Origin: Paludisphaera rhizosphaerae
GTDB taxonomy: Bacteria; Planctomycetota; Planctomycetia; Isosphaerales; Isosphaeraceae
Reading direction: 5' to 3'
Assembly: GCF_011065895.1 (NCBI RefSeq)
Contig: NZ_JAALCR010000008.1
Coordinates: 62,001-126,000, forward strand
DNA: 64,000 bases
The notes under the pieces are model-generated. The model was not told the DNA's origin and did no database searches. It saw nothing but the letters and a program-made list of their open reading frames with translations. Shown one piece after another: positions 29,993 through 50,155 of the stretch; positions within the stretch are counted from its first letter, which is position 1; each line of letters starts with the position of its first letter. A program made the position numbers and the translations under genes.

Positions 29993-31366
29993 TCATCGGC
30001 CTGAGGCCAACGGCGGATCGTTCCACTGAAGCGTCCCGACGATCGTCTCATCCTCGCCACCGAACGCCCCGGCGTCCGAATCCGCCATGGTGAACGTCGC
30101 CATGAGCTGCTCGCCGCGAGGGCTCGCCAGGAGGTAGTAGTACCAGACCACCCCCAGATCACCCTGCATCCCCTGGACGCCGAGCTTCCAGCGGAATCCG
30201 CCGTCGGCGTCGCCGGGAACCTCGCCGCCGCCGATCACGTGATCGATCCGATCCTTGAGTGCCCGTCGCACGTCCCGCTCAAACTCCTGGACGTCCTGGT
30301 GCTTCCCCTTGGGAGCATCGGGGCCGTAGACGAGGTTGCACTGAGCCTTGACCCGACCTTCGGCGTACTTCTTAAGAACCACTAATTTGCGGTCGTCCCA
30401 GTGGGTGTGCCACGACCGATCGTGGAGCAGGTTGTATCGACCGTCGGGAGCGATGAGTTGAAGCAACAGCCGCGAGGGGGTCGCCTCGGGCGAGAGCGCA
30501 GCGACAGCCGCGTCGGACAGCTCCGCGGGAGCCTCCAGACCTCCTCGACGAACGATCGTCAGCGTGCTTTTCAACTCCAGGCCCGCCTCGATCTCTCCGG
30601 GCCGCCGACTCTCGGTCCGGTTCAACTCCAGCGCCGTGATCATTCCCGCCTTGCGGTCGAAGGTGAGGAAGCCGTCGCAGGTCATGGCCCCCTCGGCCCC
30701 CAGGACCAGGCCCTTGACCTCTCCTCGGATCGTCACCCGAACCTCGTCGCCGGTCGTCGACTCGACCTCCCCCTTCATGGTGCTGGACGTCACCGAGTCA
30801 TAGCCCGTGATCGCCCACAATGCCGTTTTGCGGACGTCCCACGGCTTTCCTTTCGCAACAGGCGTTTCCGGCAGCAGGTCGAGCAGGCAGAGCGTGTCGC
30901 CCAGGCCCTCGACCAGTTCCAACTCGCCGCGGGTCAACGACCCGGCTGGGCTGAAGACCGTCGCCGAGCCGTCCGCGTCACGACGCTCAGCAACCAGCAG
31001 CGACAATTCGGGCCGCAACTCGCGGGCGGTCGGGCGGATCTCGCCGTTGATCGCCGAGGCCGCCTGCTTGACCAGACGCACCGACCGCCGCTTCGGCCCC
31101 GGCAAAAGTCGCTCCCGATAGACGATCCTGGTCTGAACGTCGACCTCAAGCGGTTTCGGGAGCTTGGCGTCGGCCGTCATGGCGTCGGGAGGGAGCGACC
31201 GCTGGAACTGGCCGTGGGCCTTCAGCTCGATCCGGGCCGCCGTGATCGCCCCCGGGCCGACCTTCTCCTCCATCGCGATCGGATCATCCGCCGCCAGGGC
31301 CGGAGCCGCCGCCAGAAGGACCGCTAGCCACCCCGCGCCGGCCGCCTTCCATCCGCAACGGTTCAT
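29993..31366 (-). CDS. Exported hypothetical protein
   Basis: 457-residue protein with an N-terminal signal peptide (AGWLAVLLAAAPALAADD, probable cleavage after ALA near residue 25). No family recognised. Middle part is beta-rich ('EVRVTIRGEVKGLVLGAEGAMTC', 'GMITALELNRTESRRPGEIEAG'), as in lipid-binding or PrcB/DUF-type periplasmic proteins. The C-terminus has 'GRYNLLHDRSWHTHWDDRKLVVLKKYAEGRVKAQCNL', similar in layout to the downstream exported protein. It is preceded by a very good promoter (31459-31486) with an 85-90 nt leader, and probably co-transcribed with the gene at 28174 (about 155 nt apart). Confidence 0.82.
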   Translation of the reverse strand: MNRCGWKAAGAGWLAVLLAAAPALAADDPIAMEEKVGPGAITAARIELKAHGQFQRSLPPDAMTADAKLPKPLEVDVQTRIVYRERLLPGPKRRSVRLVKQAASAINGEIRPTARELRPELSLLVAERRDADGSATVFSPAGSLTRGELELVEGLGDTLCLLDLLPETPVAKGKPWDVRKTALWAITGYDSVTSSTMKGEVESTTGDEVRVTIRGEVKGLVLGAEGAMTCDGFLTFDRKAGMITALELNRTESRRPGEIEAGLELKSTLTIVRRGGLEAPAELSDAAVAALSPEATPSRLLLQLIAPDGRYNLLHDRSWHTHWDDRKLVVLKKYAEGRVKAQCNLVYGPDAPKGKHQDVQEFERDVRRALKDRIDHVIGGGEVPGDADGGFRWKLGVQGMQGDLGVVWYYYLLASPRGEQLMATFTMADSDAGAFGGEDETIVGTLQWNDPPLASGR

Positions 31367-31458: not shown

Positions 31459-31486
31459 ATTATGGGAAGACGCCCCAGGCTGTCAA
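31459..31486 (-). promoter_or_regulatory. Sigma-70 consensus-like promoter for the exported-protein genes
   Basis: On the minus strand TTGACA (31486-31481) and CATAAT (31464-31459) are separated by 16 nt. This is among the best -35/-10 matches seen in the window and points to the gene starting at 31366. Confidence 0.65.
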
Positions 31487-31592: not shown

Positions 31593-31960
31593 CTAGAGAT
31601 CCACGCGTCGCTCATGACCGTTCATACGGATTGTTGGAGCAACATCGCCTCCCGTCCGAGGAAGAAATGCGAACTCGACGTCCCATTTCGGCGTCCAGAA
31701 CGTCGACGGACAACCGGCGGGCTCCTCACAGTCGCCGTTGAACAACCCAAACGGTACGAAACTTGCTGAAGTATCCACCCCAAGTCGACGACGCCGCTGC
31801 AAACGACGAAGTCGGCGGGATCTCCAAAGTCTCCCAAAAGATCGAGCGGACCGACTTCTATGGAAATCTTGATCCTTGCGACCTCGACGAACGTATAGAA
31901 TCTCAGAAGGTCCCCCAGTCGGGTCGGAGCGCTGGAAACTGACCCGAAACCGCCGAGAGG
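31593..31960 (-). pseudogene. Possible frameshifted remnant of a small gene
   Basis: The minus strand contains two protein-like stretches in different frames. The upstream frame reads 'LLRFYTFVEVARIKISIEVG' and continues to 'CSGVVDLGWILQQVSY' (about nt 31905-31755). The downstream frame reads 'PFGLFNGDCEEPAGCPSTFW', then 'KWDVEFAFLPRTGGD', to a TAG at 31593-31595. Joining them with one shift near 31755 gives about 110-120 residues without internal stops. No ATG/GTG start is visible upstream, and base composition is lower in GC than the neighbours. Family not recognised. It could instead be a chance open frame, or a sequencing frameshift in a real gene. Confidence 0.35.
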
Positions 31961-32057: not shown

Positions 32058-33737
32058 ATGGGAAAGACGTACTGCCACCCGGCGATGAAGCAACTCAAGG
32101 ACCAGCAGACGCGGTACGCCCCTCGCGAGCGCCGGCTGGAGCAGGTCGAACGGGCCGAGCAACTGCTCGCCGAGATCGACCGGACCAAGCGATACCCCTA
32201 CGACTACCTCTGCTTCAGGATCACCGGCTACCGACCTGACAACTGGTCGGCCCTGATGATCGAGGGGGACGAGGCGCGTCGCGATCTCCGCCAGTTCGTG
32301 GAAGACCTCTCGGCGACCGTCCGACAGCCCGTCGAACAGGCGGCCGAGCCGGTTCTGACCGTCGACGAGGTGAGCAAGAAATACAACGTCTCCACCCGCA
32401 CGGTGACACGGTGGCGGCGGCAGGGCCTGGTGGCGCGTCGGTTCATTATCGACGGCCGCGCCAAGGTCGGCTTCCTGGAGAGCAGCCTGCAACGGTTCGT
32501 GGCCGAGCATCGCGGCCAGGTGGAACGAGGTTCGAGATTCAGCCAACTGACCGACGCGGAGAAGGATGAAATCATCCGCCGCGCCCGTCGCATGTCGCAA
32601 TTTCGCTCGGGCGAGGTCGGCCTGATCGAAGTCGCGCGGAGGATCGCTAGGAAAATGGCACGCTCGACCGAGACCGTCCGACTCACCCTCAAGGCGTACG
32701 ACCGCGAACATCCAGACCGCGCGATCTTCGGCCCCTCCTCGCCGCCGCTTGACGACGACGCCAAGGCCCAGATTTACCTGCGGCACCGTATGGGCGTCTC
32801 GGCCGACAACCTGGCCGTCGAATTCGGCCGCACCCGATCGAGCATCTATCGGATCATCAACGAGGTCCGCGCCCAGCGTCTCCTCGAAACCAAGCTCGAA
32901 TTCATCCCCAACGAAATGTTCGACGAGCCCAAGGCCAAGACCGTCGTCATGGCCCCGCTCCCCGAACCGGCCGACGGCAAGGCCCCGCGCCGGCCCAAGG
33001 CGCCCAAGGGTCTGCCCCCGTATCTTGCGAGCCTGTACGAGGTCCCGCTGCTCGACCGCGACCAGGAAGCCCACCTGTTCCGGCAGATGAACTTCCTGAA
33101 GTCCGAGGCCGTCAAGCTCCGCGAACAGCTCGATCCGGCCAAGGCCAAGACCGCCGTGCTCGACAAGATCGAGAATCTCCAGGAGCAGGCGCTCGCGGTC
33201 AAGAACCAGATCATCCGGGCCAACCTCCGCCTGGTCGTCTCCATCGCCAAGCGCCACGTCGGCCCCTCGAACAACTTCTTCGAGTTGGTCTCCGACGGCA
33301 ATATGAGCCTCATCCGAGCGGTCGAGAAGTTCGACTACGCCCGAGGCAACAAGTTCAGCACCTACGCCTCGTGGGCGATTATGAAGAACTACGCCCGCAC
33401 GATCCCCGAAGAGAACTACCGCCGCGACCGGTTCGTCACCGGCCACGAGGAAATGTTCGAGGCGGCCGCCGACAACCGGATCGACGAGCACGAATACGAA
33501 AGCGCCCTAAAGCGCATGCAAGAGGCGATTCGAGGCATGCTCGACCGTCTGGATGATCGCGAGAAGCTCATCATCACCAGCCGATTCGGCCTGGGTGGAA
33601 CCGCCGAGCGCACCCTGGAACAGCTCGGCCGCGAACTGGGGATCACCAAGGAACGCGTCCGCCAAATCGAATCCCGAGGCGTCGACAAGCTCCGTCGCAT
33701 CGCCGGCGAGCAGAAGCTCGACCTGCCGATGCTCTGA
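32058..33737 (+). CDS. Sigma-70 family RNA polymerase sigma factor with three N-terminal HTH-like segments
   Basis: 559-residue sigma factor of unusual build. Residues 99-131 are a MerR/excisionase-like HTH ('LTVDEVSKKYNVSTRTVTRW'). 183-215 and 241-272 are two further HTH-like segments ('EVARRIARKMARSTETVRLT', 'GVSADNLAVEFGRTRSSIYR'). A region 1.2-like stretch lies at 319-347 ('YLASLYEVPLLDRDQEAHLF'). Region 2 spans 381-450 ('RANLRLVVSIAKRHVG', 'NNFFELVSDGNMSLIRAVEKF', 'KFSTYASWAIMKNYARTIP'). Region 4 spans 495-548 ('TLEQLGRELGITKERVRQIE'). Only ~45 residues separate regions 2 and 4, so region 3 is absent or vestigial. ATG follows GGGAGGG. Not the housekeeping RpoD; regulon unknown. Confidence 0.9.
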   Translation: MGKTYCHPAMKQLKDQQTRYAPRERRLEQVERAEQLLAEIDRTKRYPYDYLCFRITGYRPDNWSALMIEGDEARRDLRQFVEDLSATVRQPVEQAAEPVLTVDEVSKKYNVSTRTVTRWRRQGLVARRFIIDGRAKVGFLESSLQRFVAEHRGQVERGSRFSQLTDAEKDEIIRRARRMSQFRSGEVGLIEVARRIARKMARSTETVRLTLKAYDREHPDRAIFGPSSPPLDDDAKAQIYLRHRMGVSADNLAVEFGRTRSSIYRIINEVRAQRLLETKLEFIPNEMFDEPKAKTVVMAPLPEPADGKAPRRPKAPKGLPPYLASLYEVPLLDRDQEAHLFRQMNFLKSEAVKLREQLDPAKAKTAVLDKIENLQEQALAVKNQIIRANLRLVVSIAKRHVGPSNNFFELVSDGNMSLIRAVEKFDYARGNKFSTYASWAIMKNYARTIPEENYRRDRFVTGHEEMFEAAADNRIDEHEYESALKRMQEAIRGMLDRLDDREKLIITSRFGLGGTAERTLEQLGRELGITKERVRQIESRGVDKLRRIAGEQKLDLPML

Positions 33738-34591: not shown

Positions 34592-34664
34592 GCTGGCGTA
34601 GCTCAACCGGCAGAGCAACGGTTTTGTAAACCGTAGGTTGTGAGTTCGACTCTCACCGCCAGCT
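34592..34664 (+). tRNA. tRNA-Thr (TGT)
   Basis: 73-nt cloverleaf: acceptor GCTGGCG/CGCCAGC, anticodon stem ACGGT/ACCGT with loop TTTGTAA (anticodon TGT), T-loop TTCGACT, discriminator T, CCA not encoded. First of four tRNAs before tuf. Confidence 0.97.
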
Positions 34665-34763
34665 CTTCCGAACAAGAGCCTTCGCCGAGGCCGAACCTAC
34701 CGGACTTGCCGCCCCTCTACTTGACAGCCCGGGCGGCGGCCGTCGGCCAAGGTGTGAAACGAC

Positions 34764-34845
34764 GGGTGGATACCCAAGCGGCCAAAGGGGCCAGACTGTA
34801 AATCTGGTGGCTCTGCCTTCGCAGGTTCGAATCCTGCTCCACCCA
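34764..34845 (+). tRNA. tRNA-Tyr (GTA)
   Basis: 82-nt class II tRNA with long variable arm. Acceptor GGGTGGA/TCCACCC, anticodon stem CCAGA/TCTGG with loop CTGTAAA (anticodon GTA), discriminator A. CCA not encoded. Confidence 0.97.
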
Positions 34846-34914
34846 TGTGACTGAATCGGAGGACTGCAGCCAGGAGGGGGACGAGACGGAAATCGCCGGG
34901 AAAGCGGGATGCAC

Positions 34915-34985
34915 GCGGGTGTAGCTCAATGGTAGAGTCCCTGCCTTCCAAGCAGGTCGTGTGGGTTCGATTCCCATCACCCGCT
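34915..34985 (+). tRNA. tRNA-Gly (TCC)
   Basis: 71-nt cloverleaf. Acceptor GCGGGTG/CACCCGC, anticodon stem CCTGC/GCAGG with loop CTTCCAA (anticodon TCC), discriminator T. CCA not encoded. Confidence 0.97.
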
Positions 34986-35078
34986 CTGGCCCGGCGGATC
35001 GGGCCGGCCCCGCGAGGCGGCCGTCCGGTCGAAAACGAACCGATCCTTCAGGCTTCTGAAGACGTACAACGCGAACAC

Positions 35079-35151
<73 letters not shown>

Positions 35152-35314
35152 TTCGGGTCGGTCGCCCGTGATCGGGCGTTGAGGAGTTCGCCCCGCGACC
35201 AGCCCCGGTCGTCGGGGCAGGCCGTCCGAAACGGACCAGGCCGGCGGGTGGGGCTTGGTGACGGATCCCCGCCGAAAGACTTGACTTCGAGAATGCCGAA
35301 AAGGCGCTGAGCAC

Positions 35315-36526
35315 ATGGCCAAGGAAACCTTCACCAGAACCAAGCCTCACGTCAACGTGGGCACGATCGGACACATCGACCACGGCAAGACCACGCTGAC
35401 GGCCGCCCTGCTGGCCGTGCTGGCCGCGCGCGGCAAGGCGAAGACCAAGTCGTATTCCGACATCGCCAAGGGCGGTACTGTCCGCGATGCGACGAAGACG
35501 GTCACGATCGCCGTCTCGCACGTCGAGTACGAGAGCGACAAGCGGCACTACGCTCATATCGACTGCCCGGGCCACGCCGACTATATCAAGAACATGATCA
35601 CCGGCGCCGCCCAGATGGACGGGGCGATCCTGGTGGTTTCGGCGGCCGACGGCCCGATGCCGCAGACCCGCGAGCACATCCTCCTGGCCCGCCAGGTCGG
35701 CGTGCCGGCCCTGGTCGTCTTCCTGAACAAGATCGACCTGGTCGACGACGAGGAGTTGCTGGAGCTGGTGGAGATGGAGCTTCGCGAGTTGCTCTCCCAC
35801 TACAAGTTCCCGGGCGACGAGATCCCGATCGTCCGCGGCAGCAGCCGGCCCGCCCTTGAGAACCCGAGTGACGAAACGGCCGCCAAGCCGATTCTGGATC
35901 TCGTCCAGGCGATGGACGACTACATCCCGGATCCGGTCCACGAAGTGGACAAGCCGTTCCTGATGCCCATCGAAGACGTGTTCTCGATCAAGGGCCGCGG
36001 CACGGTGGGCACCGGACGCGTCGAGCGCGGTCGGGTCAAGGTCGGCGAGTCGGTCGAGATCATCGGTTTCGGCGTCAAGAAGCCGACGACCGTGACCGGC
36101 GTCGAAATGTTCCAGAAGACGCTCGACGAGGGCCTCGCCGGCGACAACGTCGGCGTCCTGCTCCGCGGCGTTGAAAAGAACGAGCTGGAGCGCGGGCAGG
36201 TCCTCTGCAAGCCGGGCTCGATCACCCCGCACACGAAGTTCGAGGCCGAGGTGTACGTCCTCAGCAAAGAAGAGGGCGGCCGCCACACCCCGTTCTTCAA
36301 GGGCTACCGCCCGCAGTTCTACATCCGGACGACCGACGTCACGGGCTCGATCCTCAACCTGCTGTCCGAGGACGGCACCGAGGCCGAGATGTGCATGCCG
36401 GGCGACAACATCAAGATGACGGTCGAGCTGCACACCTCGATCGCCATGGAGGAGAGCCTCCGGTTCGCCATCCGCGAAGGCGGCAAGACCGTCGGCGCGG
36501 GCGTCGTCACCAAGATCCTCGAGTGA
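35315..36526 (+). CDS. tuf: Elongation factor Tu
   Basis: 403-residue GTPase delivering aminoacyl-tRNA to the ribosome. G1 [11 protein letters not shown]3 DCPGHADY, G4 NKIDLVD, and domain 2/3 blocks '[17 protein letters not shown]' and '[15 protein letters not shown]' are all present. The segment '[21 protein letters not shown]' in the end of the G domain is slightly longer than in E. coli, a common variation. It is the protein gene of a tRNA-Thr-Tyr-Gly-Thr-tuf operon and has the same context as tufB in E. coli, followed by rpmG rather than directly by secE. No second tuf copy is in the window. Confidence 0.98.
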
Positions 36527-36539
36527 GTCAGGCCGATCG

Positions 36540-36563
36540 CGGGGCCTGTTGAATCAGGCCCCG
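36540..36563 (+). terminator. Hairpin downstream of tuf
   Basis: 9-bp perfect stem (CGGGGCCTG with its complement) and a 6-nt loop, 14 nt after the tuf stop. No U-tract, so perhaps an attenuator or processing site between tuf and rpmG. Confidence 0.45.
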
Positions 36564-36782
36564 GGGTCGAGCCCAATCCCGGGCGGCCCTTCCCGGCCGG
36601 CGGCTTCCGCCGCTTTCGGATCGGGGGGGCCGTCGCGACGTCCCAGAGAATCCGATATCCGTATCCCAGAAGCGGTGTTTGCGGCCCGTCTCGATTGGAC
36701 CGGCCGGCCCCACGCCGCGAGAGTTCGCTAGAACGAGTCCGGCGGGGCCGAGGCCGACCGTCGGGTCCGAGGTTTCATCACG

Positions 36783-36935
36783 ATGCGTGAATACGTTTGG
36801 CTTGAATGCACCGGCTGCGGCGACCGGAACTACCGCGTCCAGAAGGAGACGCGTGGGGCCAACCGCCTGGAGCTGAAGAAGTACTGCAGCCGTGAGCGGA
36901 AGCACACGCCGCATAAGGAATCCCGCAAGAAGTGA
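36783..36935 (+). CDS. rpmG: 50S ribosomal protein L33
   Basis: 50-residue ribosomal protein, MREYVWLECTGCGDRNY at the start and 'LELKKYCSRERKHTPHKES' near the end. It matches the zinc-ribbon form of L33, but only three of the four cysteines remain (C9, C12, C35). The position that is Cys in 'YCPRCKKHT' forms is Glu38 here, so zinc binding is probably weakened or lost. GAGG lies 10 nt before the ATG. Position between tuf and tRNA-Trp/secE agrees with many bacterial genomes. Confidence 0.93.
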   Translation: MREYVWLECTGCGDRNYRVQKETRGANRLELKKYCSRERKHTPHKESRKK

Positions 36936-37022
36936 CCCGCGGCGGACCGCGAGAACGCCCTGGGCGGCGGTCCTATGAACTCCGGCGGAGCGTCTCGTCC
37001 CTCGGCGACAGCTCCGGCACAC

Positions 37023-37095
37023 ACGAGCGTAGCTCAATTGGCAGAGCACCGGTTTCCAAAACCGGCGGTTGGGGGTTCGATTCCCTCCGCTCGTG
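37023..37095 (+). tRNA. tRNA-Trp (CCA)
   Basis: 73-nt cloverleaf. Acceptor ACGAGCG/CGCTCGT, anticodon stem CCGGT/ACCGG with loop TTCCAAA (anticodon CCA), discriminator G as expected for tRNA-Trp. Lies between rpmG and secE, a common arrangement. Confidence 0.97.
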
Positions 37096-37215
37096 CTTCG
37101 GCCGTCGCGAGTCGCGCGACGGCCGCCCCGGAGACGCCGAGGAGGCCACCCGCCGGGGAGCGGCGGCGGTCTCACGACGGAGCCAGCGGTTCTCCTTCCC
37201 GAATGGAACGGTCAC

Positions 37216-37740
37216 ATGGGCAAAGTGAAAGACGAAGTCTCGGGACAGAAGCCGACGAAGCCCGTCAAGGGGAAGCCGGGCGGGGGATCCGTCGGCGCTC
37301 TCGCCCAGTTCGTGGCCAACTTCTTCTCGACCACCCTCTACAAGCCGATGCAGGGCCGACACGCTCGCCTCTACACGGCGATCGGCCTGGGGATGATCGC
37401 CGCCGGGGCCGTCTGGCAGATTTACGAGCGGTCCCTCGATCTTGAGGCCGCCGCCCGCTTCGCGATTCCGGGCGCTGTCGCCGGTCTCCTCGCCTGGGCC
37501 ATCTTCCGGGTCGTCCACTATCCGCAGTTCGCCGAGTTCCTGATCGCCACCGAGGCCGAGATGAACAAGGTCTCCTGGACGAGCCGGGACGACCTTTACC
37601 GCTCGACCATCGTGGTATTGGCCACGGTCCTCCTTCTGGCCCTCTACCTGTTCGTGGTCGACTGGTTCTGGCTCTTCCTGCTGCGGATGCTTGGGGTCCT
37701 CCAGTTCAGCGGCGGAGGCGGCTTCGGCTCGACCTCCTGA
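37216..37740 (+). CDS. secE: Preprotein translocase subunit SecE
   Basis: 174-residue inner-membrane subunit of the SecYEG channel. The SecE core is at the C-terminus: 'FLIATEAEMNKVSWTSRDDLYRSTIVVLATVLLLALYLFVVDW' with the amphipathic helix and final TM. Upstream there are two more hydrophobic segments (about 56-75 and 82-102), so it is a three-TM form, as in E. coli. The ATG 37216 is used because the longer in-frame extension would run into tRNA-Trp. Followed by nusG, as usual. Confidence 0.93.
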   Translation: MGKVKDEVSGQKPTKPVKGKPGGGSVGALAQFVANFFSTTLYKPMQGRHARLYTAIGLGMIAAGAVWQIYERSLDLEAAARFAIPGAVAGLLAWAIFRVVHYPQFAEFLIATEAEMNKVSWTSRDDLYRSTIVVLATVLLLALYLFVVDWFWLFLLRMLGVLQFSGGGGFGSTS

Positions 37741-37836
37741 ACCAGCCCGCGACAGGACAGGCCCGGTCCCGCGCAGCGACCGAGGGCCTCGACCTTCCCC
37801 GCCTCCCTCAATCCAAGACGCGCCGTAGTACGTTCC

Positions 37837-38598
37837 ATGAGCCACTCGACCCACGAGAACGACGAACCGACCCCCGACGAGGTCGAATCCGAGACCCCGA
37901 ACTTCGAGGTCGAGGAGGAAACTCCGGACGGCGGCGTCGCGCACGCCCAGCCGCAACGGGCCCCCGAGCCTCAGGCTGACGAGCCGGACGACGAACCGGA
38001 GGACGCGCCTGAGCCGGTCGACGAGGACGCCGACCCACCGGTGGACCTGGTCTGGTACGTCCTGAAGGTGCAGAGCTCGCGAGAGGACACGATCGCCGAG
38101 GCTCTTCAGAGGCGGGTCAAGATCCAGGGCCTTGAGCGTTTCTTCGGCGTCACCGCCGAGGGGAAGCCGCGGATCGTCGTCCCGACCGAGAAGATCACCG
38201 AGATCCGCAACAACAAGAAGCGGATCGTCGAACGCAAGACGTACCCCGGCTACATCATGGTCCAGATGGAGCTGAACGAGAAGACCTGGTTCCTGGTCCG
38301 CGAGACTCCGGGCGTGGGGGACTTCGTCGGGGCGCATGGGACGCCCACGAAGATGACCGACACCGAGGTCAACCAGATGCTCAACCAGCAGGAAGAGCAG
38401 ACGACCGCCAAGTCTCCCACCGTTCGGATCGACGTCGAGCGGGGCGACAGAGTCAAGATCAAGGACGGCCCGTTCGAGAACTTCGAGGGGACCGTCGAGG
38501 AGGTCATCGAGGGCCGCGGCCTGGTGAAGGTGATGCTCATCATCTTCAACCGCCCCACCCCCGTCGACCTCGAATACTGGCAGTTGGAGCGGATCTGA
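37837..38598 (+). CDS. nusG: Transcription termination/antitermination factor NusG with acidic N-terminal extension
   Basis: 253-residue elongation factor binding RNA polymerase. The NGN domain starts at about residue 72 (LVWYVLKVQSSREDTIAEAL) and includes 'RKTYPGYIMVQMELNEKTWFLVRETPGVGDFVG'. A KOW domain follows (about 197-235; 'ERGDRVKIKDGPFENFEGTVEEV'). Residues 1-70 form a strongly acidic, Glu/Asp/Pro-rich extension absent from E. coli NusG (181 residues), probably disordered. Placed between secE and rplK as in most bacteria. Confidence 0.96.
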   Translation: MSHSTHENDEPTPDEVESETPNFEVEEETPDGGVAHAQPQRAPEPQADEPDDEPEDAPEPVDEDADPPVDLVWYVLKVQSSREDTIAEALQRRVKIQGLERFFGVTAEGKPRIVVPTEKITEIRNNKKRIVERKTYPGYIMVQMELNEKTWFLVRETPGVGDFVGAHGTPTKMTDTEVNQMLNQQEEQTTAKSPTVRIDVERGDRVKIKDGPFENFEGTVEEVIEGRGLVKVMLIIFNRPTPVDLEYWQLERI

Positions 38599-38692
38599 GC
38601 CCTCAAGGGCGCGGGCCGGTCCGCCGGACTGAGACGAATTCGAGACAAGCGAAGCGACAGCGAGAGACCCCCAAGGGGAGCGAGAATCCGCG

Positions 38693-39118
38693 ATGGCCAA
38701 GGTGATGACGGCGAAGGTCAAGCTGCAGTGTCCGGGGGGTCAGGCGACCCCCGCGCCCCCGGTCGGCCCCGCGCTCGGCCAGCACGGCGTGAACATCGGC
38801 CAGTTCGTGATGCAGTTCAACGAACGCACCAAGGACATGAGGGGGACCACGATCCCCGTCGAGATCACGATCTACTCGGACCGGACGTTCGAGTTCATCA
38901 CCAAGAGCCCGCCGGCCGCCGTCCTGCTGAAGCAGGCCGCCGGCATCGCCTCCGGCTCCGCGGTGCCGAACAAGACCAAGGTCGGGACCGTGACCGCCGA
39001 GCAGGTCCGCAAGATCGCCGAGACCAAGTTCCAGGACCTGAACGCCCGCGACCTCGACCACGCCTGCCGCGTGATCGCCGGCACGGCGCGGAGCATGGGC
39101 GTCGAGGTCAAGGGCTGA
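38693..39118 (+). CDS. rplK: 50S ribosomal protein L11
   Basis: 141-residue ribosomal protein at the GTPase-associated centre of 23S rRNA. Blocks '[33 protein letters not shown]', '[26 protein letters not shown]' and the C-terminal '[12 protein letters not shown]' are canonical. GGGAG precedes the ATG. First gene of the L11-L1-L10-L12 group, 94 nt after nusG. Confidence 0.98.
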
Positions 39119-39218
39119 GGCCCCAGAAATCATAAGAAGTCAAGGCCGCCGCGGGGGGCGCGTTCCCCTCGCGGCGACCGTCGGTAACGGGGGGAGCGGG
39201 CCGACGCCCCTCCCTTCG

Positions 39219-39239
39219 CCGTCCCGGAACCCGGGACGG
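39219..39239 (+). other. Perfect hairpin in the rplK-rplA spacer
   Basis: 9-bp stem (CCGTCCCGG with its complement) and AAC loop in the 218-nt gap between rplK and rplA. No T-run follows. It may be a partial terminator or a translational control element; I cannot match it to the L1-binding site. Confidence 0.35.
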
Positions 39240-39336
39240 AAGCCGGTCAGACCAGGCGCGACCGCCCGCCGTCGACCGGAGCAGAGACCCGAGCATCGAA
39301 GGCGGCAGCCCCCGAAGGGGCGAAAGGAGAGTCCAC

Positions 39337-40017
39337 TTGGCCTACCGCTCCAAACGCTATCGCGCGCTGGCGGCGAAAAACAAGGCGCAAGCCACGTTGC
39401 CGCTGGCCGAGGCGGTGAAGATCCTCAAGGGGTTCAACACCACCAAGTTCAACCAGACCGTTGAGGTCTCGACCCACCTGGGGATCGATCCTCGGCAGAG
39501 CGACCAGAACGTCCGCGGGTCCGTGGCCCTGCCGCACGGGATCGGCAAGGCCGTCCGGGTGGCCGTCTTCGCCCAGGGCGAAAACGCCGAGAAGGCCCGC
39601 GCGGCCGGGGCCGACATCGTCGGCGCCGACGACCTGGCTCAGCAGATCAAGTCCGGCGTCATGGACTTCGACGTGGCGCTGGCGACTCCCGACATGATGG
39701 GCGTCGTCGGTCCCTTGGGCCGCGTGCTTGGTCCTCGCGGCCTGATGCCGTCACCCCGCTCGGGCACCGTGACGACCGACATTGCGTCGGCGGTCAAGGA
39801 GTTCAAGGCGGGCAAGATCGAGTTCCGCAACGACAAGGGCGGCAACGTGGCGGTCCCCGTGGGGAAGATCAACTTCTCCGAGGATCAGATCGTCGAGAAC
39901 GTCACGGCGTTCCTGAACTACCTGAGGACGCTCAAGCCGGCGGCCTCGAAGGGGACGTACATCCAGACGATCACGATCTCCGCCACCATGAGCCCCGGCG
40001 TCCGGGTCTCGGCGTGA
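39337..40017 (+). CDS. rplA: 50S ribosomal protein L1
   Basis: 226-residue ribosomal protein of the L1 stalk. Blocks: '[49 protein letters not shown]' (split by small gaps in reading), '[23 protein letters not shown]' and '[19 protein letters not shown]'. It starts with TTG at 39337 behind a strong AAAGGAGA box; [11 protein letters not shown] is a normal L1 beginning. In many bacteria L1 represses translation of its own operon. 218 nt separate it from rplK, longer than usual. Confidence 0.97.
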
Positions 40018-40069
40018 CCATGGGACGCTACCAAACCATTACGTCGAGGCCGGAGCCGCGGACCCACAG

Positions 40070-40618
40070 ATGAGCAAATACGTCAAAGAAATGATGATGG
40101 ACCAGCTCCGCAGCGACCTGGGCGACGCCCGGTCGATGCTGGTCGTCGACTTCAAGGGGCTGGACGCCGTCAGCGAACACCAGTTCCGGATGGACCTCCG
40201 CAAGAAGTCGATCAAGGTGCGGACGTTGAAGAACACCCTGGCGCGACGGGTCCTGGCGGACCTCGGCGTGGACGGGCTGTCGAAGTACCTGGAAGGGCCT
40301 TCGGTCCTGGTCTGGGGCGGGGACGGTCCGGCCGAGCTGGCCAAGGAGCTGTCGGCCCAGGTCAAGAAGCTGAAGAAGCCCGCGATCAAGGGGGGCGCCG
40401 TCGACGGCGTCGTCATCGGCCCGGAACAGGTCGAGGACATCACCAAGCTCCCCAGCCGCGAGGAATTGATCGGTCGCATCGTCTCGCTGGCCCTGGCCCC
40501 GGCGGCCCGGATCGTCAGCCTGGCGAACGCCCCGGTCTCGGCCCTGGCCAGCCAGATTCAGTCGATCGCCGAGGGGGCCCCGGCCGCCGAAGGCGAGGCC
40601 GCCCCGGAAGGCGCCTGA
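40070..40618 (+). CDS. rplJ: 50S ribosomal protein L10
   Basis: 182-residue stalk base protein binding L7/L12 dimers. N-terminal RNA-binding part 'SMLVVDFKGLDAVSEHQFRMDLRKKSIKVRTLKNTLARR' and C-terminal helix 'SREELIGRIVSLALAPAARIVSLANAPVSALASQIQSIAEG' for L7/L12 binding are clear. It lies 52 nt after rplA. No L10 leader structure could be recognised with confidence. Confidence 0.97.
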   Translation: MSKYVKEMMMDQLRSDLGDARSMLVVDFKGLDAVSEHQFRMDLRKKSIKVRTLKNTLARRVLADLGVDGLSKYLEGPSVLVWGGDGPAELAKELSAQVKKLKKPAIKGGAVDGVVIGPEQVEDITKLPSREELIGRIVSLALAPAARIVSLANAPVSALASQIQSIAEGAPAAEGEAAPEGA

Positions 40619-40686
40619 CCCCCGAAGACAACCGGCGGAGGCCCGACGGCCGCCCGCCTGTAAGACCTACTTCTGATTCTCCACGG

Positions 40687-40704
40687 GTACGTCCAACGAC
40701 GTAC
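40687..40704 (+). other. Small hairpin in the rplJ-rplL spacer
   Basis: GTACGT-CCAACG-ACGTAC, a 6-bp perfect stem within the 139-nt gap before rplL. Possible attenuator or mRNA-stability element; weak on its own. Confidence 0.25.
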
Positions 40705-40757
40705 GCCGAACGAACCGCCTGATCTTTCGATCGAGTGAAGAAAGGACCGCTCTCGCC

Positions 40758-41165
<408 letters not shown>

Positions 41166-41614
41166 TTTTCGCCGCCTCCCGGACCGCCCTGCGGTCCGGG
41201 AGCGCCGGCTGAATCCGGGGTGGAAGCGACGGCGAGTAATCGCCGCAGGCTGATCCGCCCCCGCAACCTCCCTCTGCTGTCCTCTGCTCGGCCCGCGACC
41301 GCCATGCGGCTGCGGCGGCCCCCGGCCCGGACGATGATGCTCCACCGACTCGCAGGACAGGCCGAAACCGTCCCGACGGGCTCCCAGGACGAGCCCGTTC
41401 GCGAAGCCGCAGCCTCGGCCCCGTCGTCGCCGTTCCACCGCATCGAGACCCTTGAACGTCGTCCCCAGGAGTCGCCCGCGGCCATCCGCGGGCCGTTGCC
41501 GTTTGGGACGGCCGCCGCCCAGACCGACCCGCCCGGACGGACGACGACGCGATCGCGACCGCCGACGCGACCCCGGCCCGTGCCCCTTTCCTAATTCGAG
41601 GAGCGCGCCCTCTT
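41166..41614. other. 449-nt spacer between rplL and rpoB
   Basis: Apart from the hairpin at 41176-41202 I see no gene: open frames here are Arg/Pro-rich and start-less or lack ribosome sites. No clear promoter by eye. The last 15 nt carry GAGGAG before the rpoB ATG. Confidence 0.5.
41176..41202 (+). terminator. Perfect hairpin after rplL (attenuator/processing site)
   Basis: 12-bp perfect stem (CTCCCGGACCGC with its complement), 3-nt loop, 11 nt after the rplL stop. No U-tract. In E. coli an attenuator and an RNase III site lie in the same place between rplL and rpoB. Confidence 0.55.
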
Positions 41615-45334
<3,720 letters not shown>

Positions 45335-45422
45335 GTCGGTGGTTTTCCCCCAGGCCGGCGACCCCGCCCTCCAACGCCAGGAGAGCGGGGCCGCCTTGGC
45401 CCCGACCGCGCGCGGTCGGACC

Positions 45423-45641
45423 TTGAGATTTTTTCGGAATTTCGCTTGGAATCGGCCCTGGGTTTGCTTAGGATCAACGGATGCGACTTCGTCGCGGGAC
45501 GATCTTCCGCGCCTTGCGATCGTCGACGCTCGGGGGAAGCGCCGATCGATCCTGCGCGGAGTCGACGACGGGATCCTGCGGATCCCGGTCAAGGAGGAGC
45601 CGAACTTGGCGATCCGGGTCCCAGGACGACCTCTATCATAA
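45423..45641 (+). CDS. Possible short ORF between rpoB and rpoC
   Basis: This frame ends in TAA just before the terminator hairpin. From the TTG at 45423 it would encode 72 residues; no ribosome binding site is evident and the start is not secure. The second half looks protein-like with the genome's usual codons: 'LPRLAIVDARGKRRSILRGV' followed by 'GILRIPVKEEPNLAIRVPG'. Alternatively, the candidate promoter at 45446-45474 would transcribe only the later portion, which has no start codon, so the transcript may be non-coding. Family not recognised. Listed with low confidence because frame quality and the neat fit before a terminator are suggestive. Confidence 0.25.
   Translation: MRFFRNFAWNRPWVCLGSTDATSSRDDLPRLAIVDARGKRRSILRGVDDGILRIPVKEEPNLAIRVPGRPLS
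45446..45474 (+). promoter_or_regulatory. Sigma-70 like promoter between rpoB and rpoC
   Basis: TTGGAA (45446-45451) and TAGGAT (45469-45474) with a 17-nt spacer, within an AT-rich patch. Found by eye, but spacing and both boxes are good. It would start transcription near 45481. Confidence 0.5.
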
Positions 45642-45644
45642 GCA

Positions 45645-45696
45645 CCGCGGGGAGCCCCGACGCCGTCGGGGGGCCCGTCCGCGGCTTTTTTTGTTT
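45645..45696 (+). terminator. Intrinsic terminator with U-tract between rpoB and rpoC
   Basis: CCGCGG pairs with CCGCGG enclosing an inner GC-rich stem (GCCCCGAC/GTCGGGG type), immediately followed by CTTTTTTTGTTT. It is the only hairpin with a long T-run that I find in the window, located 191 nt before the rpoC start. Confidence 0.7.
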
Positions 45697-45886
45697 CGGG
45701 GCGACGAGAGTCGGGACGCGCGCCCCGGCGCTTCCCGGTCGCACTCCCTGACGTGAGCATGGGCTTGGTTTGATCTCGCCCGAGGGGGCCGGCCCCTGGC
45801 TGAGGACGCGACGAAGGCGACCGTCGCTCCTCACCCGCCGACCCGCCCGCCCTCGGATTCGCCGGAACCGCGGAGGAGAGTGTCTC

Positions 45887-50155
<4,269 letters not shown>

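Follow-up and report, generated by a model that had tools for sequence, protein, structure and literature searches.

A probable alternative sigma factor of Planctomycetota without region 3 and with three predicted helix-turn-helix folds at its N terminus

What kind of sigma factor is encoded ahead of the translation and RNA polymerase genes of Paludisphaera rhizosphaerae, and how could it select its promoters? The question is raised by a plus-strand ORF within the stretch of 64,000 nucleotides analysed here (the window; the genome has 8.05 Mb), which extends from an ATG at 32058 to a stop at 33737 and encodes 559 aa, exactly as an earlier note on this DNA had placed it. Taken jointly, the observations are on balance probably best explained by an alternative sigma factor of hybrid-like build that is conserved through one Planctomycetota class. 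No description of it was found in the open-licence PMC literature searched.

The protein passed the Pfam cut-offs for sigma-70 region 2 (PF04542, residues 386-441, 50.9 bits vs. 24) and region 4 (PF04545, residues 495-546, 66.7 bits vs. 24.1), which places it in the sigma-70 family in the broad sense. The top NCBIfam match was MzaA (148.7 bits vs. a cut-off of 800), followed by the RpoD, SigA and RpoS models; none of these four was passed, and the sole NCBIfam model passed was that of the broad sigma70-ECF superfamily (103.9 vs. 42.9 bits). The closest protein of the same genome is RpoD, with 45% identity over residues 379-452, and the nearest named relatives belong to Paludisphaera soli (93%), then to Aquisphaera and Singulisphaera. 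Family members are 541-578 aa long and have a median pI of 9.5 (n = 153; in this set, as in the 204-sequence set taken for residue and spacing counts, some orthologs represent one genome under two loci). AlphaFold2 modelled the full protein from 79 sequences with a mean pLDDT of 83.9 and a pTM of 0.45, and residues 1-290 with values of 87.4 and 0.60, the inter-domain arrangement being uncertain in both models. The parts of the ORF are as follows.

32058..33737, + strand: ORF of a sigma factor without region 3, 559 aa (ORF call, Pfam, NCBIfam, genome scans)
32058..32339, + strand: N-terminal cap, residues 1-94, with helices 8-20, 23-39, 48-56 and 70-88 and strands 45-47 and 67-69 (AlphaFold2, class conservation)
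32340..32510, + strand: predicted HTH1, residues 95-151, winged, MerR/Xis/BldC-like (Pfam, AlphaFold2, fold search)
32553..32708, + strand: predicted HTH2, residues 166-217, trihelical (AlphaFold2, alignment)
32754..32888, + strand: predicted HTH3, residues 233-277, trihelical (HTH_29/23/28, AlphaFold2)
33009..33413, + strand: sigma regions 1.2 and 2, SigA-like, residues about 317-452 (coordinates for 318-452; Pfam, superposition, profiles)
33360..33407, + strand: region 2.3/2.4 stretch TYASWAIMKNYARTIP, residues 435-450, with the equivalents of W434A, Q437K and T440A at residues 440, 443 and 446 (alignment)
33414..33512, + strand: ECF-length linker replacing region 3, residues 453-485 (~35 residues vs. 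~95 in RpoD; model, profiles)
33513..33713, + strand: sigma region 4, residues 486-552 (Pfam, superposition, profiles)

Region 3 is missing. Searching the whole genome with PF04539, its Pfam model, gave five places, with RpoD first and none at the sigma gene, and PF04539 was not among the 25 of 26 Pfam matches listed for the protein (E up to 1). From the FSTY motif to the ERxRQ motif of region 4 the family spans 100 residues (94-104, n = 144), compared with 158 in all 30 RpoDs, so that the median is 58 residues shorter; the distance between regions 2 and 4 is 36-37 residues, against 95-98 in the RpoD_Cterm and MzaA models, and 44 residues where the ECF model has 45. What remains between them is a mildly acidic linker (median charge -2 over 28 residues) that has a 0.7% hhalign value against RpoD region 3 and is disordered in the AlphaFold2 model, residues 456-475 having a pLDDT below 50. 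The earlier note had proposed precisely this, a sigma factor without region 3 and with a short gap between regions 2 and 4, and had named the presence of a region 3 as what would overturn it; neither the sequence nor the model contains one. A region 1.1-like part was not recognised either. In lacking region 3 and having a short linker, the protein thus departs from primary sigma factors and resembles the ECF group.

The part directly upstream of the linker is SigA-like. Residues about 317-452 superpose on regions 1.2-2 of four SigA rows (128-138 residues, 3.1-3.8 Å, Z 13.2-13.4, 35-37% identity), and the profile matches to these regions start at residue 322; regions 1.2, 2 and 4 are all in place as previously listed. 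Conservation within the family is highest in region 2, where 32 of 74 positions are invariant among the 18 relatives (out of 39) that are most distant. The face directed to the -10 element was compared in sigma-70 numbering, assigned by ungapped offsets, in the 204-sequence set, of which nine sequences (eight of them orthologs) lack the anchor motif. W433 is retained in 146/146 family sequences, while its partner W434 is replaced by alanine in 144 (serine and cysteine in one each); at Q437 and T440, which we take to be the readers of position -12, lysine (139) or arginine (7) and alanine (146/146) are found. The RpoDs of the same group have W, W, Q and T at these four positions in 30/30 cases. 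In primary sigma factors the tryptophan pair forms the wedge at -12/-11, and in group-3 sigma factors its positions are not conserved, according to PMC6411747. The pocket for -11A is largely kept: F419 and Y430 are present in 146/146 sequences, E420 is replaced by D in 145, R423 is retained in 115 and replaced by K in 29, and Y425 is N in 126 (n = 146). These residues point to an altered preference at -12 with capture of -11A maintained. The earlier note, which had quoted the region 2.4 stretch correctly, had deduced from it an altered -10 element; the replacement of the residues facing -12 and of half of the melting tryptophan pair gives that idea a form narrowed to -12, whereas most of the -11A pocket is unchanged, and the ECF-type promoter of the gene described below is only a candidate for the -10 element of this factor.

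Region 3, a hallmark of primary sigma factors, is missing and region 1.2, which ECF sigma factors do not have, is present; the protein, within the sigma-70 family, most likely works as a primary/ECF hybrid with an added, predicted DNA-binding module. With RpoD/SigA (groups 1 and 2) it shares regions 1.2, 2 and 4, with profile probabilities of 99.7% for region 2 and 99.2% for region 4, and it differs in the missing region 3, in the replaced W434, Q437 and T440, and in the three HTHs in front. With the ECF sigma factors (group 4) it shares the linker length, the lack of region 3 and an ECF-type promoter ahead of its gene, but its region 2 is SigA-like, it carries an N-terminal HTH module, and it has region 1.2, which group 4 lacks according to the same source (PMC6411747). 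Primary-type sigma factors without region 3 are already known: RpoX of Vibrio alginolyticus, which is RpoS-like, is one, and the passages of PMC6134601 on it, with which the comparison was made rather than with its sequence, mention no HTH module. MzaA of the MZA anti-phage system matches in regions 1.2-2 and 4; it differs in that its equivalog cut-off is not reached, in the 98 residues that it holds between regions 2 and 4, room enough for a region 3, and in the window neighbourhood, which consists of translation and RNA polymerase genes. Separately, five human faecal phage records (MT836798.1, MT837028.1, MT836863.1, MT840071.1 and MT835896.1) contain RpoD-like sigma factors with 27-31% identity, the spacing of whose matches is too short for a region 3 (15 of 51 records listed).

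The N-terminal half begins with an alpha/beta cap (residues 1-94), conserved in the class and overlooked by the earlier note. It belongs to no Pfam family, and a Foldseek search with the N-terminal half returned 427 matches at E ≤ 10 and 0 at E ≤ 0.001; the cap is therefore left without an assigned fold, which is not proof of a new one. Three predicted HTHs follow, at or near the places proposed earlier (99-131, 183-215 and 241-272), and all three segments fold as such in the model, the check by structure prediction thus coming out in favour of the proposal. HTH1, excisionase/MerR-like in the earlier note, matches HTH_17 at 99-151 (28.1 bits vs. a cut-off of 27) and is modelled as a winged fold with a strand at 99-101, helices at 102-109 and 113-122, and a two-strand wing at 127-140, as in MerR-type domains; the HTH_BldC profile matches it at 4.9e-5. 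As to the MerR family proper, in which a dimerisation helix and an effector domain come behind the HTH, PF00376 and PF13411 stay under their cut-offs. In the fold search, residues 97-153 matched BldC (6ama; Z 6.4, 2.5 Å over 54 residues, 32% identity), a terminase small subunit (7lwr, Z 7.2) and Pukovnik Xis (4j2n, Z 6.3), all three within 2.3-2.5 Å. BldC, Xis, MerR and terminase winged HTHs are stand-alone DNA binders, whereas HTH1 is fused to a sigma factor and its binding is a prediction. HTH2 matches no Pfam family and is trihelical in both AlphaFold2 models (helices 166-182, 189-199 and 204-217; pLDDT 65-67 around 181-190), and HTH3, with helices at 233-244, 249-256 and 260-277, passes the cut-offs of HTH_29 (236-275), HTH_23 and HTH_28.

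These features are family-wide. HTH_17 and HTH_23 are matched by 79/79 aligned relatives (the alignment omits L142, owing to a problem with its frame or a stop, and L114, owing to its length), and the residues invariant across the 79 rows include T115, R118, W119, R120, G123 and L124 of HTH1 and R202, E205 and R208 of HTH2. The net charge in the window protein is +7 for the HTH1 stretch, +5 for HTH2, -2 for HTH3 and +1 for the cap. The proposal that the sigma factor brings its own sequence-specific DNA-binding array hence gains from three predicted HTH folds, present class-wide and basic in HTH1 and HTH2, and loses from HTH3, which is not basic, and from forms in which the array is dispensable (see below); DNA binding by the array is putative.

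The fold search also hinted that HTH2-HTH3 might represent sigma regions 3 and 4 in a displaced copy, region 3 then having been moved and not lost: residues 163-286 align in order with SigA regions 3-4 (9uma_F 263-423, Z 7.1, 105 residues aligned). The rmsd of that alignment is, however, 19.5 Å, and a Z below 8 is at a level common for the fold-search tool. Profile comparison spoke against the idea, with 3.7% for HTH2 vs. RpoD region 3, 2.9% for HTH3 vs. RpoD region 4 and 0.5% for both jointly, whereas the true regions reach 99.7% and 99.2%. We rejected the displacement on account of this gap in kinship and hold it to be very improbable. HTH3 gave 45% against the family's own region 4 and HTH1 gave 86% against HTH3, values that we read as general HTH likeness.

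The full-length arrangement is widespread in one class and also occurs in other Planctomycetota. Within the class, 58 of 59 genomes (including that of P. rhizosphaerae) were matched at E ≤ 1e-30, and 55 of 59, again including its own and counted from rows, hold a near full-length form; the other four (G008, G015, G020 and G026) are drafts of 68-92% completeness. In a Pirellulaceae-like family 88/98 genomes were matched at E ≤ 1e-100, and nine of the ten misses belong to one genus, g222. A draw of 244 genomes from the phylum gave 58 matched genomes, with all 25 same-class genomes among those listed being matched and 14 genomes outside the class matching nearly full length, and the N-terminal profile was found in 57 of the 244, nearly always in ORFs of at least 379 aa. 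The best 80 loci of a scan of bacterial genomes carry planctomycete names or plain 'bacterium', and no plasmid or phage record covers 80% of the sigma factor. Rhodopirellula baltica RB12251, a 567-aa 'RNA polymerase specialized sigma factor' of pI 9.4, fits as a candidate member by length and pI; in one table of PMC2754498, the text of which calls it rfaY, heat, cold and salt repress it along with genes for ribosomal proteins. For essentiality in Planctopirus limnophila, only 'the housekeeping sigma factor' is named in the excerpted text of PMC10632474.

Shorter forms show how the parts can be uncoupled. Many of these genomes also contain paralogs consisting of HTH3 plus the sigma half or of the sigma half alone. 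In genus g222 the HTH3-plus-sigma form occurs in 10/13 genomes and the N-terminal profile, which finds 57/244 in the phylum, in 0/13. A tree built from 58 rows set the RpoDs apart (100/100) and placed the g222 genes among the full-length ones of the family to which they belong (100/99), which indicates that the module was lost in g222; two rows were skipped, and the Isosphaeraceae paralogs were not firmly placed. The N-terminal module is thus separable, because one genus and several paralogs do without it; as they retain the sigma half while cap, HTH1 and HTH2 are absent, not all forms of the protein require the array. The g222 genes L222-L231 amount to a natural truncation experiment. Outlying relatives of another kind (L234, L235, L236, L239, L240 and L242; for example L234:946-2520, L235:2009-4699, L239:929-2611 and L240:751-2928) keep the N-terminal half and have a region 2 that Pfam does not recognise, and such genes as L234, L235, L239 and L240 could possibly encode sigma-derived factors without promoter melting.

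Two readings of the N-terminal module bear on promoter selection. It could be a regulatory part, not a promoter-selecting one, and act by binding a partner, a ligand or a single operator, or by folding back onto regions 2/4 to keep the factor inactive until a signal arrives, in the manner of region 1.1 or of fused anti-sigma extensions. Consistent with this are the poorly conserved tether of 38 residues to region 1.2 (3/38 positions invariant), the loss of the module with retention of the sigma half in g222 and the paralogs, the nearly neutral cap without a known fold, and a cap-like stretch joined to a sigma half with the HTHs between them missing in L237 (381 aa) and a similar match in G094; it is countered by three consecutive HTH folds, two of them basic and with invariant residues near the recognition helix, and by Pfam, which shows no ligand-binding or transmembrane domain in the protein. 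We regard this regulatory role as rather unlikely. Conversely, the protein could be a sigma factor and transcription factor in one, with a tripartite promoter in which the HTH array takes an upstream site, region 4 the -35 element and region 2 a non-T -12; such a factor would need no region 3, would regulate its own gene and would determine how strongly a small regulon connected with tRNA and translation genes is expressed. This fuller proposal is tentative and, taken as a whole, rather improbable as well.

The features of the neighbourhood and of the promoter of the gene are given next.

29993..31366, - strand: divergent neighbour, 457 aa, signal-peptide-like start, no Pfam family (ORF call, Pfam)
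31459..31486, - strand: sigma-70-type promoter-like TTGACA-N16-CATAAT of the divergent gene (sequence pattern)
31869..31896, + strand: ECF-type promoter-like TTGATC-N17-CGTAT of the sigma gene (pattern, in 5/6 genomes of the genus including its own)
34592..50155, + strand: cluster from tRNA-Thr, -Tyr, -Gly and -Thr to rpoC (gene finding)
35315-36526, + strand: tuf
37023, + strand: tRNA-Trp
37069-37740, + strand: secE
37837-38598, + strand: nusG
38693-39118, + strand: rplK
39337-40017, + strand: rplA
40070-40618, + strand: rplJ
40758-41165, + strand: rplL
41615-45334, + strand: rpoB
45770-50155, + strand: rpoC

The gene context is conserved, a point absent from the earlier note. Among the 48 named loci that extend 4 kb or more downstream, 29 have a same-strand tuf behind the sigma gene and the other 19 do not adjoin tuf; the tRNA order Thr-Tyr-Gly-Thr-Trp occurs in 29 of 50 scanned loci (out of 80). 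The divergent neighbour is kept in 56 of the 73 loci having 1.5 kb upstream. Control of the tRNA-tuf operon by the sigma factor was considered and rejected: a GATC-N17-CGTA before tRNA-Thr(GGT) at 35041 is not conserved elsewhere, and the operon is preceded by an RpoD-type promoter, the look of which was recognised by eye in about 15/17 loci. Control of rpoD was likewise rejected; the pattern occurs in 5/30 rpoD upstream regions vs. 1.3 expected, yet the matches lie in what by eye looks like protein-coding sequence. Upstream regions of the paralogs have the site in 1/20 cases (0.4 expected).

Conserved ECF-type promoters, not noticed in the earlier note, do precede the sigma gene itself. In its upstream regions, dereplicated from 154 to 140 and still related (13 of those with GAAC-N16-CGTC come from one genus), the 8-mers GCGAACTT (26 vs. 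1.0 expected) and GAACTTTT (30 vs. 1.7) are over-represented. GAAC pairs with CGTC or CGTA solely at a spacing of N16-17, where GAAC..CGTA also peaks, and GAAC-N16/17-CGT[AC] occurs in 73/140 regions vs. 3.6 expected, and in two on the opposite strand. A recount gave 72/138, with controls of 0/50 for tuf, 1/14 for L11, 1/24 for L1 and 1/46 for the divergent gene; 27/140 regions are without a site even under a loose definition. Isosphaeraceae beyond the window genus often have a distal GCGAACAA..CGTCTGTTT plus a proximal GAYC-N17-CGTA. In the six genomes of the window genus TYGATC-N17-CGTAT was found at 49 places, those recurring being the sigma-gene site (five genomes) and one identical 28-mer (five genomes); the reversed control gave 0, a weak comparison since CTAG, which it includes, is rare.

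Across 17 genomes of one Pirellulaceae genus, GAACTTTT-N12/13-CGTC has 66 places vs. 62 for the reversed pattern, hence no genome-wide excess, which leaves two options: a small regulon, or a pattern other than the signature of this sigma factor. Sixteen of the 66 places are the sigma gene (16/17 genomes), and of 12 other stretches nine lie inside ORFs of at least 100 aa and three outside (L260, being at a different place, was dropped from five further stretches). As an observation apart, 6/17 genomes of one genus have GCGAACTTTT-N12-CGTC ~260 nt ahead of a cluster that holds five tRNA-like genes and one for an HNH endonuclease (L246:1253-1509; L254, L256-L259), with a terminator-like hairpin and T run just ahead of the first tRNA, an arrangement of sequence that is suggestive of an unannotated RNA some 220 nt long.

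Which sigma factor reads these sites? GAAC-N16/17-CGTC is the textbook form of an ECF promoter. A sigma-H promoter, for comparison, has GGAACA at -35 and GTT at -10 (PMC6411747). The sites may thus belong to a planctomycete ECF sigma factor, in which case the protein would be the second tier of an ECF cascade and its own promoters would be something else. Besides the form of the site, this account is favoured by the SigA-like region 2, which, given its retained -11A pocket, would not lead one to expect a CGTC -10 and rather weighs against the factor reading GAAC/CGTC itself, and by the occurrence of the site before a tRNA cluster in one genus. It is opposed by the retention of GAAC-N16-CGTC in at least four of the nine truncated g222 genes examined and, weakly, by G301, a genome without the sigma gene that has 0 matches of GAACTTTT-N12/13-CGTC, the main site sitting at the gene and the assembly being 92% complete. 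We consider the ECF cascade an even call. If the sigma factor does read GAAC-N16-CGTC, it does so without HTH1 and HTH2, because the g222 genes keep the site. Autoregulation, that is, the factor reading its own ECF-type promoter, is on these patterns conceivable and somewhat short of an even chance, and the retention of the site with a truncated protein and in 16/17 genomes of another genus speaks more for some kind of fixed circuit.

For the alternative sigma factor of hybrid-like build, the following mode of action may be envisaged. Regions 2 and 4 would bind core RNA polymerase, and the linker would, by analogy, thread the active-site cleft as ECF linkers do, the roles of that linker and of the tryptophan pair being those described in PMC6411747. 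Region 2 would capture the flipped -11A, read a different base at -12 and melt the DNA with one of the two tryptophans. Lacking region 3, the factor would make no extended -10 contact, so that its promoters would need a good -35 element and/or extra contacts, and the basic N-terminal HTHs, on their ~38-residue tether, could supply such contacts to promoter DNA. The gene would be expressed from ECF-type promoters (GAAC or GAYC, N16-17, CGTC or CGTA), either by its own product or by an ECF sigma factor, the latter making it the second tier of a cascade.

Planctomycetes have an unusual cell biology, and the literature examined holds little on their promoter choice beyond lists of ECF sigma factors. 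A single-copy, class-wide sigma factor with an altered -12 face and a predicted HTH array would provide a direct handle on that choice. It would also be a natural test of the need for region 3 and for the second melting tryptophan, and of the ability of sigma factors to bring along an activator domain themselves.
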